From: Nitrospinota bacterium
Lineage (GTDB): Bacteria > Tectomicrobia > Entotheonellia > J063
Assembly: GCA_003696125.1 (NCBI GenBank)
Contig: RFHZ01000270.1
Location: forward strand, 1-16,385
DNA length: 16,385 nt
Direction of reading: 5' to 3'
Below the pieces are notes generated by a model. That model had not been told where the DNA came from, did not search any database, and saw only the letters and a list, made by a program, of their open reading frames with translations. Positions 5,808-9,524 of the stretch are shown piece by piece. Numbering within the stretch: the stretch's first letter is position 1; every line of letters starts with the position of its first letter. The translations under genes were made by a program, and so were the position numbers.

Positions 5808-6803
5808 ATGAGTGCATCCCCCTCCCCCCTGCTGCAGGTCGAGAACCTGACCAAGTATTATCCTTACCAGCCAGGGGTTTTACGCTCTTCTCGGGTCTGG
5901 ATCAAAGCGCTGGACGGGGTGAGCTTTACCATCCAGCCAGGAGAGGTGTTGGGACTGGTGGGGGAGTCCGGGTGTGGGAAGACGACCCTGGCGCGTAGCC
6001 TTGTCCGCCTGGTGGAACCGACCTCTGGCCGCATCCTCTTTCAGGGGGAGAATATCCTGGAGCGACCGGTATCGTTGATGAAGGGTGTGTACCGCGACAT
6101 GCAGATGGTCTTTCAGGACCCTTACTCTTCCCTGCATCCCAAGCAGATGGTGATCGATCTGGTGGGGGAGGGGCTGCGGATTCATCGGCTCGCCAGGAAG
6201 CGGGAATTGCGGGATCGGGTCCTGGAGGTCCTGGAACTGGTTGGCCTGCACCAGGATCATCTCTACCGTTTCCCGCACGAATTCAGCGGGGGACAACGCC
6301 AGCGGATCGCCATTGCCCGCGCTCTCATCCTGCGACCCAAATTTCTCATCCTGGATGAGCCGACCTCGGCCCTCGATGTGTCGGTACAGGCCCAGATTCT
6401 CAACCTGCTGAAGCGATTACGCCGGGAGCTTGGTCTGACCTACCTCTTTATCTCCCATGACCTGTCGGTGATCGAGCACATGAGCGATCGGGTCGGCGTG
6501 ATGTACCTCGGCCATCTGGTCGAGCTGGGGAAACGAGAGGCGTTGTTTCGCCGTCCCCTTCACCCCTATGCCCAGATTTTGCTTCAGGCCATTCCGGTGC
6601 CCGATCCTGATCGGATTCCCCCTCGCATCTCGCTAACTGGGGAGGTCCCCAGTCCCATCGATCCCCCGGCCGGGTGTCCCTTCCATCCCCGCTGTCCGCT
6701 GACCGTGGATCGGTGTCGGGAAGAGATCCCGCGCTGGCAGGAGATAGAGGCCGAGCATTGGGTGGCGTGTCATCTGGCTACAGAAGGAGGAAAAACCGGT
6801 TGA
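5808..6803 (+). CDS. dppF: Peptide ABC transporter ATP-binding protein DppF
   Basis: 331 residues. It is the partner ATPase of DppD. Walker A is GESGCGKTT (52-60), the Q-loop Gln is 103 (FQDP), the signature is FSGGQRQR (159-166), Walker B is FLILDEP (179-185) and the switch His is 217 (SHD). An early insertion with SSRVWIKALDGVSF is typical of DppF/OppF. The C-terminal region repeats the four-Cys pattern (290, 296, 303, 321), so both ATPases may carry an iron-sulfur cluster. AGGAG lies just before the start, three bases past the dppD stop. Its stop codon TGA is embedded in the -35 element of the next promoter. Confidence 0.95.
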   Translation: MSASPSPLLQVENLTKYYPYQPGVLRSSRVWIKALDGVSFTIQPGEVLGLVGESGCGKTTLARSLVRLVEPTSGRILFQGENILERPVSLMKGVYRDMQMVFQDPYSSLHPKQMVIDLVGEGLRIHRLARKRELRDRVLEVLELVGLHQDHLYRFPHEFSGGQRQRIAIARALILRPKFLILDEPTSALDVSVQAQILNLLKRLRRELGLTYLFISHDLSVIEHMSDRVGVMYLGHLVELGKREALFRRPLHPYAQILLQAIPVPDPDRIPPRISLTGEVPSPIDPPAGCPFHPRCPLTVDRCREEIPRWQEIEAEHWVACHLATEGGKTG

Positions 6804-6828
6804 CAAATCCCTCCCCTCTTCGTAAACT
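6800..6828 (+). promoter_or_regulatory. Strong candidate promoter for the thiolase-DUF35 gene
   Basis: A perfect -35 TTGACA (6800-6805), a 17-bp spacer and TAAACT (6823-6828). The -35 contains the dppF stop codon. Transcription would start near 6835, giving a leader of about 93 bases to the ATG at 6928. The leader holds an inverted repeat, GAGACT-12-AGTCTC (6855-6878), that might be an operator. The thiolase cluster is therefore probably its own unit, although read-through from dpp is possible because I see no terminator between them. Confidence 0.62.
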
Positions 6829-6927
6829 TAGCAGCAGAGAGGCATGGTTGTAGAGAGACTTTCCCGGTGACCAGTCTCCCAGAGAGCGTTTGCCTTTGGG
6901 AAGAAGCCAAGCAGAGAGGAATGAGCG

Positions 6928-8565
6928 ATGAATGGGGTCTATATCGCCGGTGTGGGGATGACCCGTTTTGGCAAGACACAGGATTCCCTCCGTACCCTTC
7001 TGACTCGGGCGGCACAGCAGGCGGTAGGAGATCCAGACCGGTTTGCCACCATCGATGCCGTCTATGTTGGGGTCATGAACGCCGAGGAGTTTACGGGGGA
7101 AGGAAACATCGCCACCGCCATAGTCGATCATCTCGGGCTGTATGGGGTGCCCGCCTTCCGTATCGAGACCGCTTCCTCCACAGGAGCCGCTGCCCTGCAT
7201 GCCGCCTTTTATGCCCTGACCTCGGGACATTTCCGCAATATCCTGGTGCTGGCCGGTGAGAAGATGACCCACCTGCACACGGCCAGGACGACCAAGATCC
7301 TGGCCGAGGTGATCGAGTTGTATGAGCGTAACTGTGGTGCCTCTATGCCGGCACTGGCCGCGATGATTACCCAGCGGTATATGAGTCAGTACAAGATCTC
7401 CCTCCCCCATATGCAGCGCATCCTTTCCGCCGTAGCCATCAAGAACCATTACAACGGGAGCCTCAATCCCTACGCCCAGTTTCAGAAGGAGATTACCCGG
7501 GAGAAGTATCTGGAGAGCCGGGAGATCTCTTCCCCGCTGCGCCTGTACGACTGCGCCCCTATCACCGATGGGGCGGCTGCCGTGGTCCTGACGACGGATA
7601 AGACCGATATTCGTATCATCGGGGTAGGCCAGGGGACTGATACCCTGGGGATCCGCTTCCGGGATTCCTTCACCTCGTTCCGCTCCACCCAGCTGGCGGC
7701 GAAAAGGGCCTACTCCATGGCCCAGATTACTCCCAAGGAGGTCGATTTTGCCGAGGTCCATGACGCCTTTACCACCTTTGAGATCATCGGGACGGAAGAC
7801 CTGGGGTTCTTTCCCCCTGGTAAAGGGGGGCGGGCGGTAGAAAAGGGGCTGACCGCGCTGGATGGGGAGTTGCCGATCAACGCTTCTGGCGGCCTGAAAG
7901 CCCGGGGACACCCGGTCGGAGCCTCGGGACTGGCGCAGATTGTCGAGATCGTCTGGCAGATGCGGGGCGAGGTGGACGAGCGACGGCAACTGAAGAAGAC
8001 CAACGTGGGATTGGCCCAGAGCATCGGTGGACTGGGGAACAACAACTTCGTCACCATCTTGGAGCGGACGGATCGGCAGAAGGTTCAGGTGCAGGGCTGG
8101 GAGAACGCCTATCCCTTCCCCCTGGAACTTCCCCCCCGTCCCAAGCGGGACCCGGAGAGTGCGACCAAAGAGGGACGGCTGGAGACCTTTACCATCCTCT
8201 ACACCACCCCTGAGGGGTTCCCCTCCCCTTTGCAGATAGGGCTGGTCGAGGATGATGAAGGCCATGTGCTGCTGGCCCGCTCCCGCCGGGTGGAGAACCT
8301 GAAGGTCGGTACCCGGGTCATCATCACCAAGATCGGGGATACCTACTACTACTTTACCCGCAGTAGTTTTGATAAGTTCCGTATCATCGGGAAGAAGAAG
8401 TTCCGTGATCTCACCCACAATGAGCTGGTGCGGAGTTTTCAAAGCAAAGTGCGCAGTGATTTGCGGCGGTTGAAACGCGAGCTGTGGGATTACAGGCAAA
8501 GCCGCAGATTACAGGGAGGACCGGAAGGCGAACTCACGGTGGAGGAGAAGGATGCATGCAAGTGA
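6928..8565 (+). CDS. SCP2-type thiolase-like protein fused to a C-terminal DUF35 OB-fold domain, catalytic cysteines absent
   Basis: 545 residues in three parts. Residues 1-380 are an SCP2/archaeal-type thiolase fold: VYIAGVGMTRFGK at the start, YDCAPITDGAAA (207-218), EVHDAF (276-281), NASGGLKARGHPVGASG (318-334). Residues about 415-478 match a DUF35 OB-fold (PLQIGLVEDDEGHVLLA, then LKVGTRVIITKIGD). The Cys-rich zinc ribbon that often precedes such domains is absent. Residues 479-545 are a Lys/Arg-rich helical tail. In ordinary family members the nucleophile Cys lies in an EAACASG-like motif; here the motif is ETASSTG, with Ser83. The HDCF Cys is Ala280. His278 and His328 remain. A standard thiolase reaction is therefore doubtful. 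A C-C lyase (aldolase-like) or acyl-CoA binding role is inferred. AGAGGA lies seven bases before ATG. Separate thiolase and DUF35 partners are common; one chain is less usual. Confidence 0.85.
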   Translation: MNGVYIAGVGMTRFGKTQDSLRTLLTRAAQQAVGDPDRFATIDAVYVGVMNAEEFTGEGNIATAIVDHLGLYGVPAFRIETASSTGAAALHAAFYALTSGHFRNILVLAGEKMTHLHTARTTKILAEVIELYERNCGASMPALAAMITQRYMSQYKISLPHMQRILSAVAIKNHYNGSLNPYAQFQKEITREKYLESREISSPLRLYDCAPITDGAAAVVLTTDKTDIRIIGVGQGTDTLGIRFRDSFTSFRSTQLAAKRAYSMAQITPKEVDFAEVHDAFTTFEIIGTEDLGFFPPGKGGRAVEKGLTALDGELPINASGGLKARGHPVGASGLAQIVEIVWQMRGEVDERRQLKKTNVGLAQSIGGLGNNNFVTILERTDRQKVQVQGWENAYPFPLELPPRPKRDPESATKEGRLETFTILYTTPEGFPSPLQIGLVEDDEGHVLLARSRRVENLKVGTRVIITKIGDTYYYFTRSSFDKFRIIGKKKFRDLTHNELVRSFQSKVRSDLRRLKRELWDYRQSRRLQGGPEGELTVEEKDACK

Positions 8566-8969
8566 GGTGCGCTTTTTACGGCCTGGCCAACCAAGCTGGC
8601 AAAACTGAACTCCTCATCGAAGAAGAATGCCTGCGGGTGGGAGAACGCCTGCAATATAACGGAGAGCTCTATGTGATCCTCTCTGTCTGCACTGAAGGGG
8701 ACAGGTTTCACGCCAACGTGGCTTTAGAGAGTAGCCGGCGGGCTCCGCTGGCAGGGCAGAGGCAGGTTGTCTGGTCAGATGGGGTGCGTCGTCCTTCCTG
8801 GGGGAGGAGAGGCGAGAGAGGACAAGGGGAGGGGGAGCGGAGGACAGAGGAGTTGCGTGAACAGCTTTTGCAGGCGGAGGAGCGCCTTCAAGCGTTGCTG
8901 GCAGAGCGGGAGGAGTACGCAGAGCGTCTGGAAAAGCTGATTCAGCAGCTTGAGAGCCTCCACGAATAG
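8556..8969 (+). CDS. Hypothetical protein with a small N-terminal domain and C-terminal coiled coil
   Basis: 137 residues; I do not recognise the family. I chose ATG 8556 because it overlaps the thiolase-DUF35 stop by ten bases and follows GGAGGAGAAGG (8541-8551). Starting at 8484 in the same frame would give a longer overlap and an atypical Arg-rich lead. Residues 1-60 look like a compact beta-rich domain (RCAFYGL, GERLQYNGELYVILSVCTEG, HANVALES) with three Cys that form no obvious metal site. Residues 62-92 are a basic, Gly/Arg-rich linker. Residues 93-136 are a strong coiled coil with Leu at heptad positions (LREQLLQAEERLQALLAERE and onward). There is no signal peptide, so it is cytoplasmic. 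Its coupling to the fusion gene suggests a partner or scaffold role, which is inference only. Confidence 0.7.
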   Translation: MQVRCAFYGLANQAGKTELLIEEECLRVGERLQYNGELYVILSVCTEGDRFHANVALESSRRAPLAGQRQVVWSDGVRRPSWGRRGERGQGEGERRTEELREQLLQAEERLQALLAEREEYAERLEKLIQQLESLHE

Positions 8970-9038
8970 CGCAAAGCTTGGGTAATGAAGAGGGCTCCTT
9001 TCCCCAAGAGAGGTGAAGGAGAGGGTAGGGAGAGAGTG

Positions 9039-9524
9039 ATGTTTTCACAAAAGTTTCAGGAGCTAGAAGAGAAGATCAAGAAGACGGCAGAACTGGTTTC
9101 CCGCCTCAAGCAGGAAAAGCGGGAGTTAGAGAGGAAGCTGCAGGCTGCCGAACAGAAGATCGTAGAGCTCGAAGCAGAGATCAGACGTCTCCACTATGAG
9201 GCAGAAAGGCGTGCCTCTGTCAGCCCTATGTCCCAGCCTTCCCAGACGCGGAACGATGACCAGCCGCATCAAGAGATCCGCCGACTCCAGGAGCGTATTG
9301 CCCGGGAGAGTGGAAACTATCGTGCCTATTTTGACCTGGGAGCTCTCTACGAGAAGCTGGGCTTCTATGAGAAGGCGATCCAGGAATATCGGAAAGCCTT
9401 ACAGATCAACCCGGACTTCCTGGAGGCTACCGAGCATCTCGCTTTTCTCCTGGAAAAGCTCAATCGTGATCACGAAGCTTCTCCTCTCTGGGATCGTATC
9501 CTCTCCCTCAAAAAGCGCCTCTGA
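9039..9524 (+). CDS. ZapB-like coiled coil / TPR protein
   Basis: 161 residues from ATG 9039. That start follows a long purine-rich ribosome site (GGTAGGGAGAGAG) and begins directly with a coiled coil, MFSQKFQELEEKI, like small ZapB-type cell-division proteins. An in-frame ATG at 8985 would add 18 Arg/Lys-rich residues that look like translated Shine-Dalgarno sequence, so I reject it. Residues 1-57 are coiled coil with repeating Leu/Ile. Residues 58-78 are a polar linker. Residues 94-161 are two TPR repeats: AYFDLGALYEKLGFYEKAI and onward with the NPDF end, then EATEHLAFLLEKL. The protein is cytoplasmic, likely an oligomerising adaptor. It lies 69 bases after the preceding coiled-coil gene on the same strand and is probably the last gene of that unit. 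The function is unknown. Confidence 0.78.
   Translation: MFSQKFQELEEKIKKTAELVSRLKQEKRELERKLQAAEQKIVELEAEIRRLHYEAERRASVSPMSQPSQTRNDDQPHQEIRRLQERIARESGNYRAYFDLGALYEKLGFYEKAIQEYRKALQINPDFLEATEHLAFLLEKLNRDHEASPLWDRILSLKKRL

Follow-up and report, generated by a model that had tools for sequence, protein, structure and literature searches.

The 545-aa protein encoded on the forward strand at positions 6928-8565 of the window (the whole 16,385-nt stretch of contig RFHZ01000270.1 analysed here) lacks both catalytic cysteines of thiolases and very probably belongs to a distinct family of non-thiolase enzymes. The explanation that we tentatively prefer as a whole is that both cysteines were lost once in an ancient branch of archaeal-type thiolases and that this branch has since been maintained as an enzyme of a different kind, one acting on CoA thioesters without a nucleophile. 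The gene, its domains and the positions discussed below are as follows.

6928..8565 (+), gene encoding the thiolase-OB fusion that lacks the catalytic cysteines, 545 aa (ORF, Pfam)
6928..8073 (+), thiolase domain, residues 1-382 (Pfam; model against 6esq_A, Z 60.6)
8074..8163 (+), linker without cysteines, residues 383-412 (opposite the zinc ribbon when aligned with DUF35 partners that are not fused)
8164..8361 (+), OB-fold domain (DUF35/PF01796), residues 413-478 (Pfam; fold matches to 6esq_E, 6ok1_D and 9myr_B)
8362..8562 (+), C-terminal tail, helical and basic, residues 479-545 (count of K/R against D/E; model confidence is lower here)
7174..7176 (+), Ser83, codon TCC, at the position of the nucleophilic Cys (alignment)
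7759..7761 (+), His278 of the HDAF motif, kept in all Cys-less rows (alignment)
7765..7767 (+), Ala280, at the position of the HDCF Cys (alignment)
7909..7911 (+), His328 of the GHP motif, kept in all Cys-less rows (alignment)
8020..8022 (+), Ser365, which covaries with position 83 in the clade (tree and alignment)
8038..8046 (+), Asn371-Asn373, a loop rich in Asn that typifies the Cys-less clade (alignment)

The reading frame is complete, starts with ATG and is preceded by a ribosome-binding-like GAGAGGA at 6914-6920. Pfam recognizes Thiolase_N, Thiolase_C_1 (234-380, E 3e-44) and OB_ChsH2_C (413-464) in the protein, all above their cut-offs, the last with 28.5 bits against a cut-off of 27.1. 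The best NCBIfam model, PRK06064, scores 392 bits, under its cut-off of 420, so that curated annotation ends short of a named function. A pseudogene or a sequencing artefact was rejected, since the frame is intact and the substitutions recur throughout the clade. An antisense ORF of 573 aa (6778-8499, reverse strand) spans nearly the whole gene; it probably mirrors the coding strand, as GC-rich homologues have similar antisense ORFs. At the other end, a small forward-strand ORF without a Pfam match (8556-8969) overlaps the end of the thiolase gene by 10 bases and is followed by the gene of a TPR protein (8985-9524, forward strand), with co-translation a possibility.

In phmmer alignments, residues 1-380 align with 7yvy, 4yzo, 6esq and SCP2 thiolases. 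Ser83 falls on the Cys of the EAACASG motif of 7yvy, 6esq and SCP2 thiolases and Ala280 on the Cys of HDCF, as the sequence-only reading had proposed, and the two histidines which it had described as retained (His278 and, in GHP, His328) occur in every Cys-less row. The two cysteine changes do not carry the same weight: the Pyrococcus protein 7yvy also reads HDAF, yet retains the nucleophile Cys, so that, of the two changes, only replacement of the nucleophile is diagnostic by itself. Cys136 and Cys209, named at the outset as residues that might instead occupy the nucleophile position, were both rejected as substitute nucleophiles, since neither is conserved in the clade; at position 209, for instance, the other Cys-less proteins have Phe, Thr or Tyr.

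More than 70 relatives were gathered by tblastn over named genomes and further genome sets. Fused relatives, approximately 47-60% identical, were found in Syntrophaceae, Desulfarculaceae (including Desulfocarbo indianensis), 'Deltaproteobacteria' bins and one small phylum in which all nine genomes examined carry the gene. Unfused relatives accompanied by a separate DUF35 gene were found in Thermoplasmatales (55-56% identical) and in another small phylum (three of three genomes examined). Both cysteines are absent from all of these fused and unfused relatives, and the Sulfolobus protein ST0096 (4yzo) falls in the same Cys-less clade, as do Thermoplasmatota members. In a quick tree of 102 rows, all these Cys-less relatives and 4yzo make up a 33-row branch (SH-aLRT 99), which also takes in one long-branched Bathyarchaeota row. 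In a careful tree of 60 rows, for which the trait positions 83, 280 and 371-373 were masked, 25 Cys-less rows (including 4yzo) form one side of a split that has every Cys row on the other (UFBoot 99 / SH-aLRT 94), and only two changes between Cys and non-Cys occur, the second of them in the unrelated L024. The loss of both cysteines is thus real, the same pattern recurring across a supported clade, and, judged from alignment and tree, it is a trait of the family and not decay.

Two further groups of sequences were noted alongside this clade. L024 (1474-2598, reverse strand) encodes a further thiolase-like protein that is independent of the clade and placed outside it; here, too, the nucleophile site is occupied by Ser and the other motif reads HDAF. 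In genomes of the window's own class (L019, L020 and L021) there is a divergent fused relative (33%) reading DTASSSG and HDPF, which adjoins an NFACT gene in two of the three.

Within the Cys-less branch, 31 rows share His278, Asp279, His328, Asn318 and Asp214 without exception, and His174 likewise does not vary. Positions 83 and 365 are paired as Ser/Ser in 27 rows and as Pro/Asn in five (n = 32), with two switches on the tree, while Cys-bearing relatives mostly have Cys/Asn. Position 365, as placed by motif, would be the site of the second Cys in classical thiolases; the coupling, which with two independent transitions is statistically unproven, suggests a constrained pocket.

The AlphaFold2 model of the protein (pLDDT 91, pTM 0.86) was used for a fold search, in which the thiolase part came closest to 6esq_A (Z 60.6, rmsd 1.4, 376 residues aligned), with weaker matches to 4yzo (Z 54.3) and to the steroid aldolases 9myr (46.3) and 6ok1 (46.0). 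Folded alone, the OB part reached a pLDDT of 77, and its top three matches were the DUF35 chains 6esq_E, 6ok1_D and 9myr_B (Z 8.6-9.0). Ribosomal OB folds scored only slightly lower (8.5), and the DUF35 identity of the domain therefore rests also on Pfam and on the fact that it aligns directly with the DUF35 genes lying beside unfused relatives. A phmmer search of the C-terminal 155 residues against the PDB gave no meaningful match, whereas the fold search did find the DUF35 chains. Four zinc-ribbon cysteines are kept in the unfused DUF35 partners and none in the fused proteins. The protein had been described as a single-chain thiolase-DUF35 fusion: the single chain and the OB half are confirmed by Pfam, fold and alignment, and it is only this half that is fused, the zinc ribbon having been lost. 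Fusions of DUF35 with thiolases as such have already been noted (PMC2954200). From residue 478 onwards the tail contains 19 K/R against 11 D/E, and its net charge is +5 to +11 in all 15 fused members (14 of them related fusions) outside the divergent L019-L021.

Among known systems, ST0096 of Sulfolobus tokodaii resembles the protein in lacking both cysteines (SGSG, HDMA), in having Ser/Ser at 83/365 and in belonging to the same clade, but is a stand-alone thiolase chain, about 40% identical; no description of its function was found in the literature searched, in which its single mention is that of a structural neighbour of PhlC. The acetoacetyl-CoA thiolase of 6esq, from the archaeal thiolase/HMG-CoA synthase/DUF35 complex, has the closest fold, an OB partner of the same family and both histidines, but possesses Cys85 and HDCF, and its partner is a separate zinc-ribbon protein. 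Trypanosoma brucei SLP and Mycobacterium smegmatis TLP1 likewise have no nucleophilic Cys; however, they carry YDCF or YSCF instead of HDAF, TLP1 has no GHP, and both are distant matches only.

Three observations support the suggestion of the sequence-only reading that the protein is not a normal thiolase and may be another CoA-ester enzyme: the whole clade has lost both cysteines, His278, Asp279 and His328 are conserved, and the thiolase fold is closest to that of 6esq. In thiolases, the oxyanion hole for the enolate is formed by two His or by Asn and His (PMC3406046). In the Cys-less branch, a thioester of CoA (or of a carrier) would bind next to the OB domain, and its enolate would be stabilised by an oxyanion hole of His278 and His328, without a covalent acyl-enzyme. 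The enolate would most likely arise from C-C cleavage, because the Cys for alpha-proton abstraction is gone too and C-C cleavage needs neither an acyl-accepting Cys nor an alpha-proton base. Our first choice for such a reaction would be decarboxylation of a malonyl- or methylmalonyl-type thioester, by analogy with the ketosynthase-like decarboxylases KSS and KSQ. These are polyketide synthase domains that work on ACP-bound units and have no DUF35; they share with the window protein the thiolase-superfamily fold and a replaced nucleophile Cys (Ser or Gln), and the window protein, too, retains the active-site histidines. KSS domains, in which Cys has changed to Ser, and KSQ domains catalyse decarboxylation, while their condensation activity is reduced or lost (PMC12843615). 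A free malonyl-CoA decarboxylase would, however, be wasteful unless its substrate is special, and a decarboxylase specifically, argued from this analogy, seems possible but doubtful.

The genomic neighbourhood, compared in about 25 loci, offers two recurring settings, recR/fab and propionyl-CoA carboxylase, each confined to one lineage. In the bacterial phylum of G025, the Cys-less gene is located between recR and yceD-plsX-fabH-fabK-fabG-fabF-like genes, which serve fatty-acid synthesis. In Thermoplasmatales (three loci, from close relatives), the thiolase-DUF35 pair adjoins genes for a carboxyltransferase, a biotin carboxylase, a biotin-carrier protein, an epimerase-like glyoxalase and methylmalonyl-CoA mutase. 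Other lineages have era-like, NFACT or ALAD genes as neighbours, and in the window the fusion gene comes after a dipeptide-type ABC transporter operon. The propionyl-CoA carboxylase/mutase and fab neighbours lend weak support to the proposed decarboxylase and could be coincidence, as the neighbours vary by lineage and are mostly housekeeping genes. In L132 (8819-10371) and L133, a Cys-less thiolase with Pro at position 83 has genes for molybdenum hydroxylase and an FdrA/AllF-like CoA ligase in its vicinity; L132 also holds a zinc-ribbon DUF35 gene as well as AllG and a cyclase, a setting reminiscent of purine or allantoin breakdown.

Invariance of His278, Asp279 and His328 over great distances, together with the coupled positions 83 and 365, fits catalysis better than it fits a non-catalytic CoA- or acyl-CoA-binding scaffold working via partner proteins, and a partner thiolase is usually absent beside the gene. 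A scaffold is thus unlikely, even if both cysteines are gone, the basic tail suggests interaction, and one DUF35 complex does contain a thiolase-superfamily subunit, PhlA, that is inactive (PMC2954200).

The protein had also been proposed to be a self-contained aldolase, that is, a retro-aldolase or aldolase acting on 3-hydroxyacyl-CoA in one chain with its OB domain. It does share the thiolase fold and the type of OB partner with Ltp2-ChsH2 (6ok1) and Sal-Shy (9myr), and loss of the nucleophile is common to Sal (PMC12329534); these aldolases differ from it in having Gly at the nucleophile site, a Tyr base, a zinc finger and two chains. In proven acyl-CoA retro-aldolases the base is a Tyr (YDHF in Ltp2, YDCY in Sal) and the acid is a second Tyr or the motif Cys, the catalytic residues being Tyr294 and Tyr344 in Ltp2 and Tyr302 and Cys304 in Sal (PMC12329534). 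The window protein possesses His278 and Ala280 where Sal has Tyr302 and Cys304, and a retro-aldolase by residue match was rejected because the Tyr base is missing. The zinc finger that shapes the substrate is missing as well, and steroid or side-chain genes were not found near the gene in the window. Moreover, the tree separates the protein from the YDxF proteins of its own genome. The aldolase proposal is therefore not supported, and a version with a His-based mechanism is distinctly unlikely. The same genome does encode thiolase-like proteins with YDSF and YDAF (L003 and L004), both near DUF35 genes (L113 and L114). L003 matches Sal at E 5e-63 and Ltp2 at 4e-57 and also resembles 4u4e, which makes it a candidate aldolase.

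The presence of Ser at the exact nucleophile position, at a predicted helix start and in 27 of 32 rows, could mean that Ser83 is the true nucleophile of an acyltransferase or thioesterase with a Ser-His-Asp triad, like DpsC-type ketosynthases, DpsC being proof that Ser can serve in a thiolase fold (PMC12664062). We consider this improbable: the five rows with Pro at 83 include the close Thermoplasmatales relatives, whose other motifs are intact, which argues against an essential Ser nucleophile, and the C88S substitution kills the related acyltransferase PhlC (PMC6392133). An ordinary but slow thiolase using Ser as nucleophile, which the overall identity of 35-43% to archaeal thiolases might suggest, is highly improbable, given that both catalytic cysteines are missing clade-wide and that Cys-type thiolases are encoded separately in the window's genome, as they are in Thermoplasmatales.

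The nucleophile-free CoA-thioester enzyme can be extended to a widespread, as yet unnamed bacterial and archaeal family, in which a Cys-less thiolase became a decarboxylase or lyase acting on (methyl)malonyl-type CoA thioesters, was later fused to the OB domain and took on a housekeeping role in several candidate phyla; in this full form the proposal is rather unlikely. Databases label such proteins thiolases or acetyl-CoA acetyltransferases, and a whole conserved branch, including the solved 4yzo, cannot use the thiolase mechanism. If these proteins have an activity of their own, the metabolism reconstructed for Desulfarculaceae, Syntrophaceae, Thermoplasmatales and a number of candidate phyla would contain miscounted thiolase steps and lack a real reaction, and the branch would represent another thiolase fold, beside KSQ domains and steroid aldolases, that works without the nucleophile but with part of the oxyanion hole.
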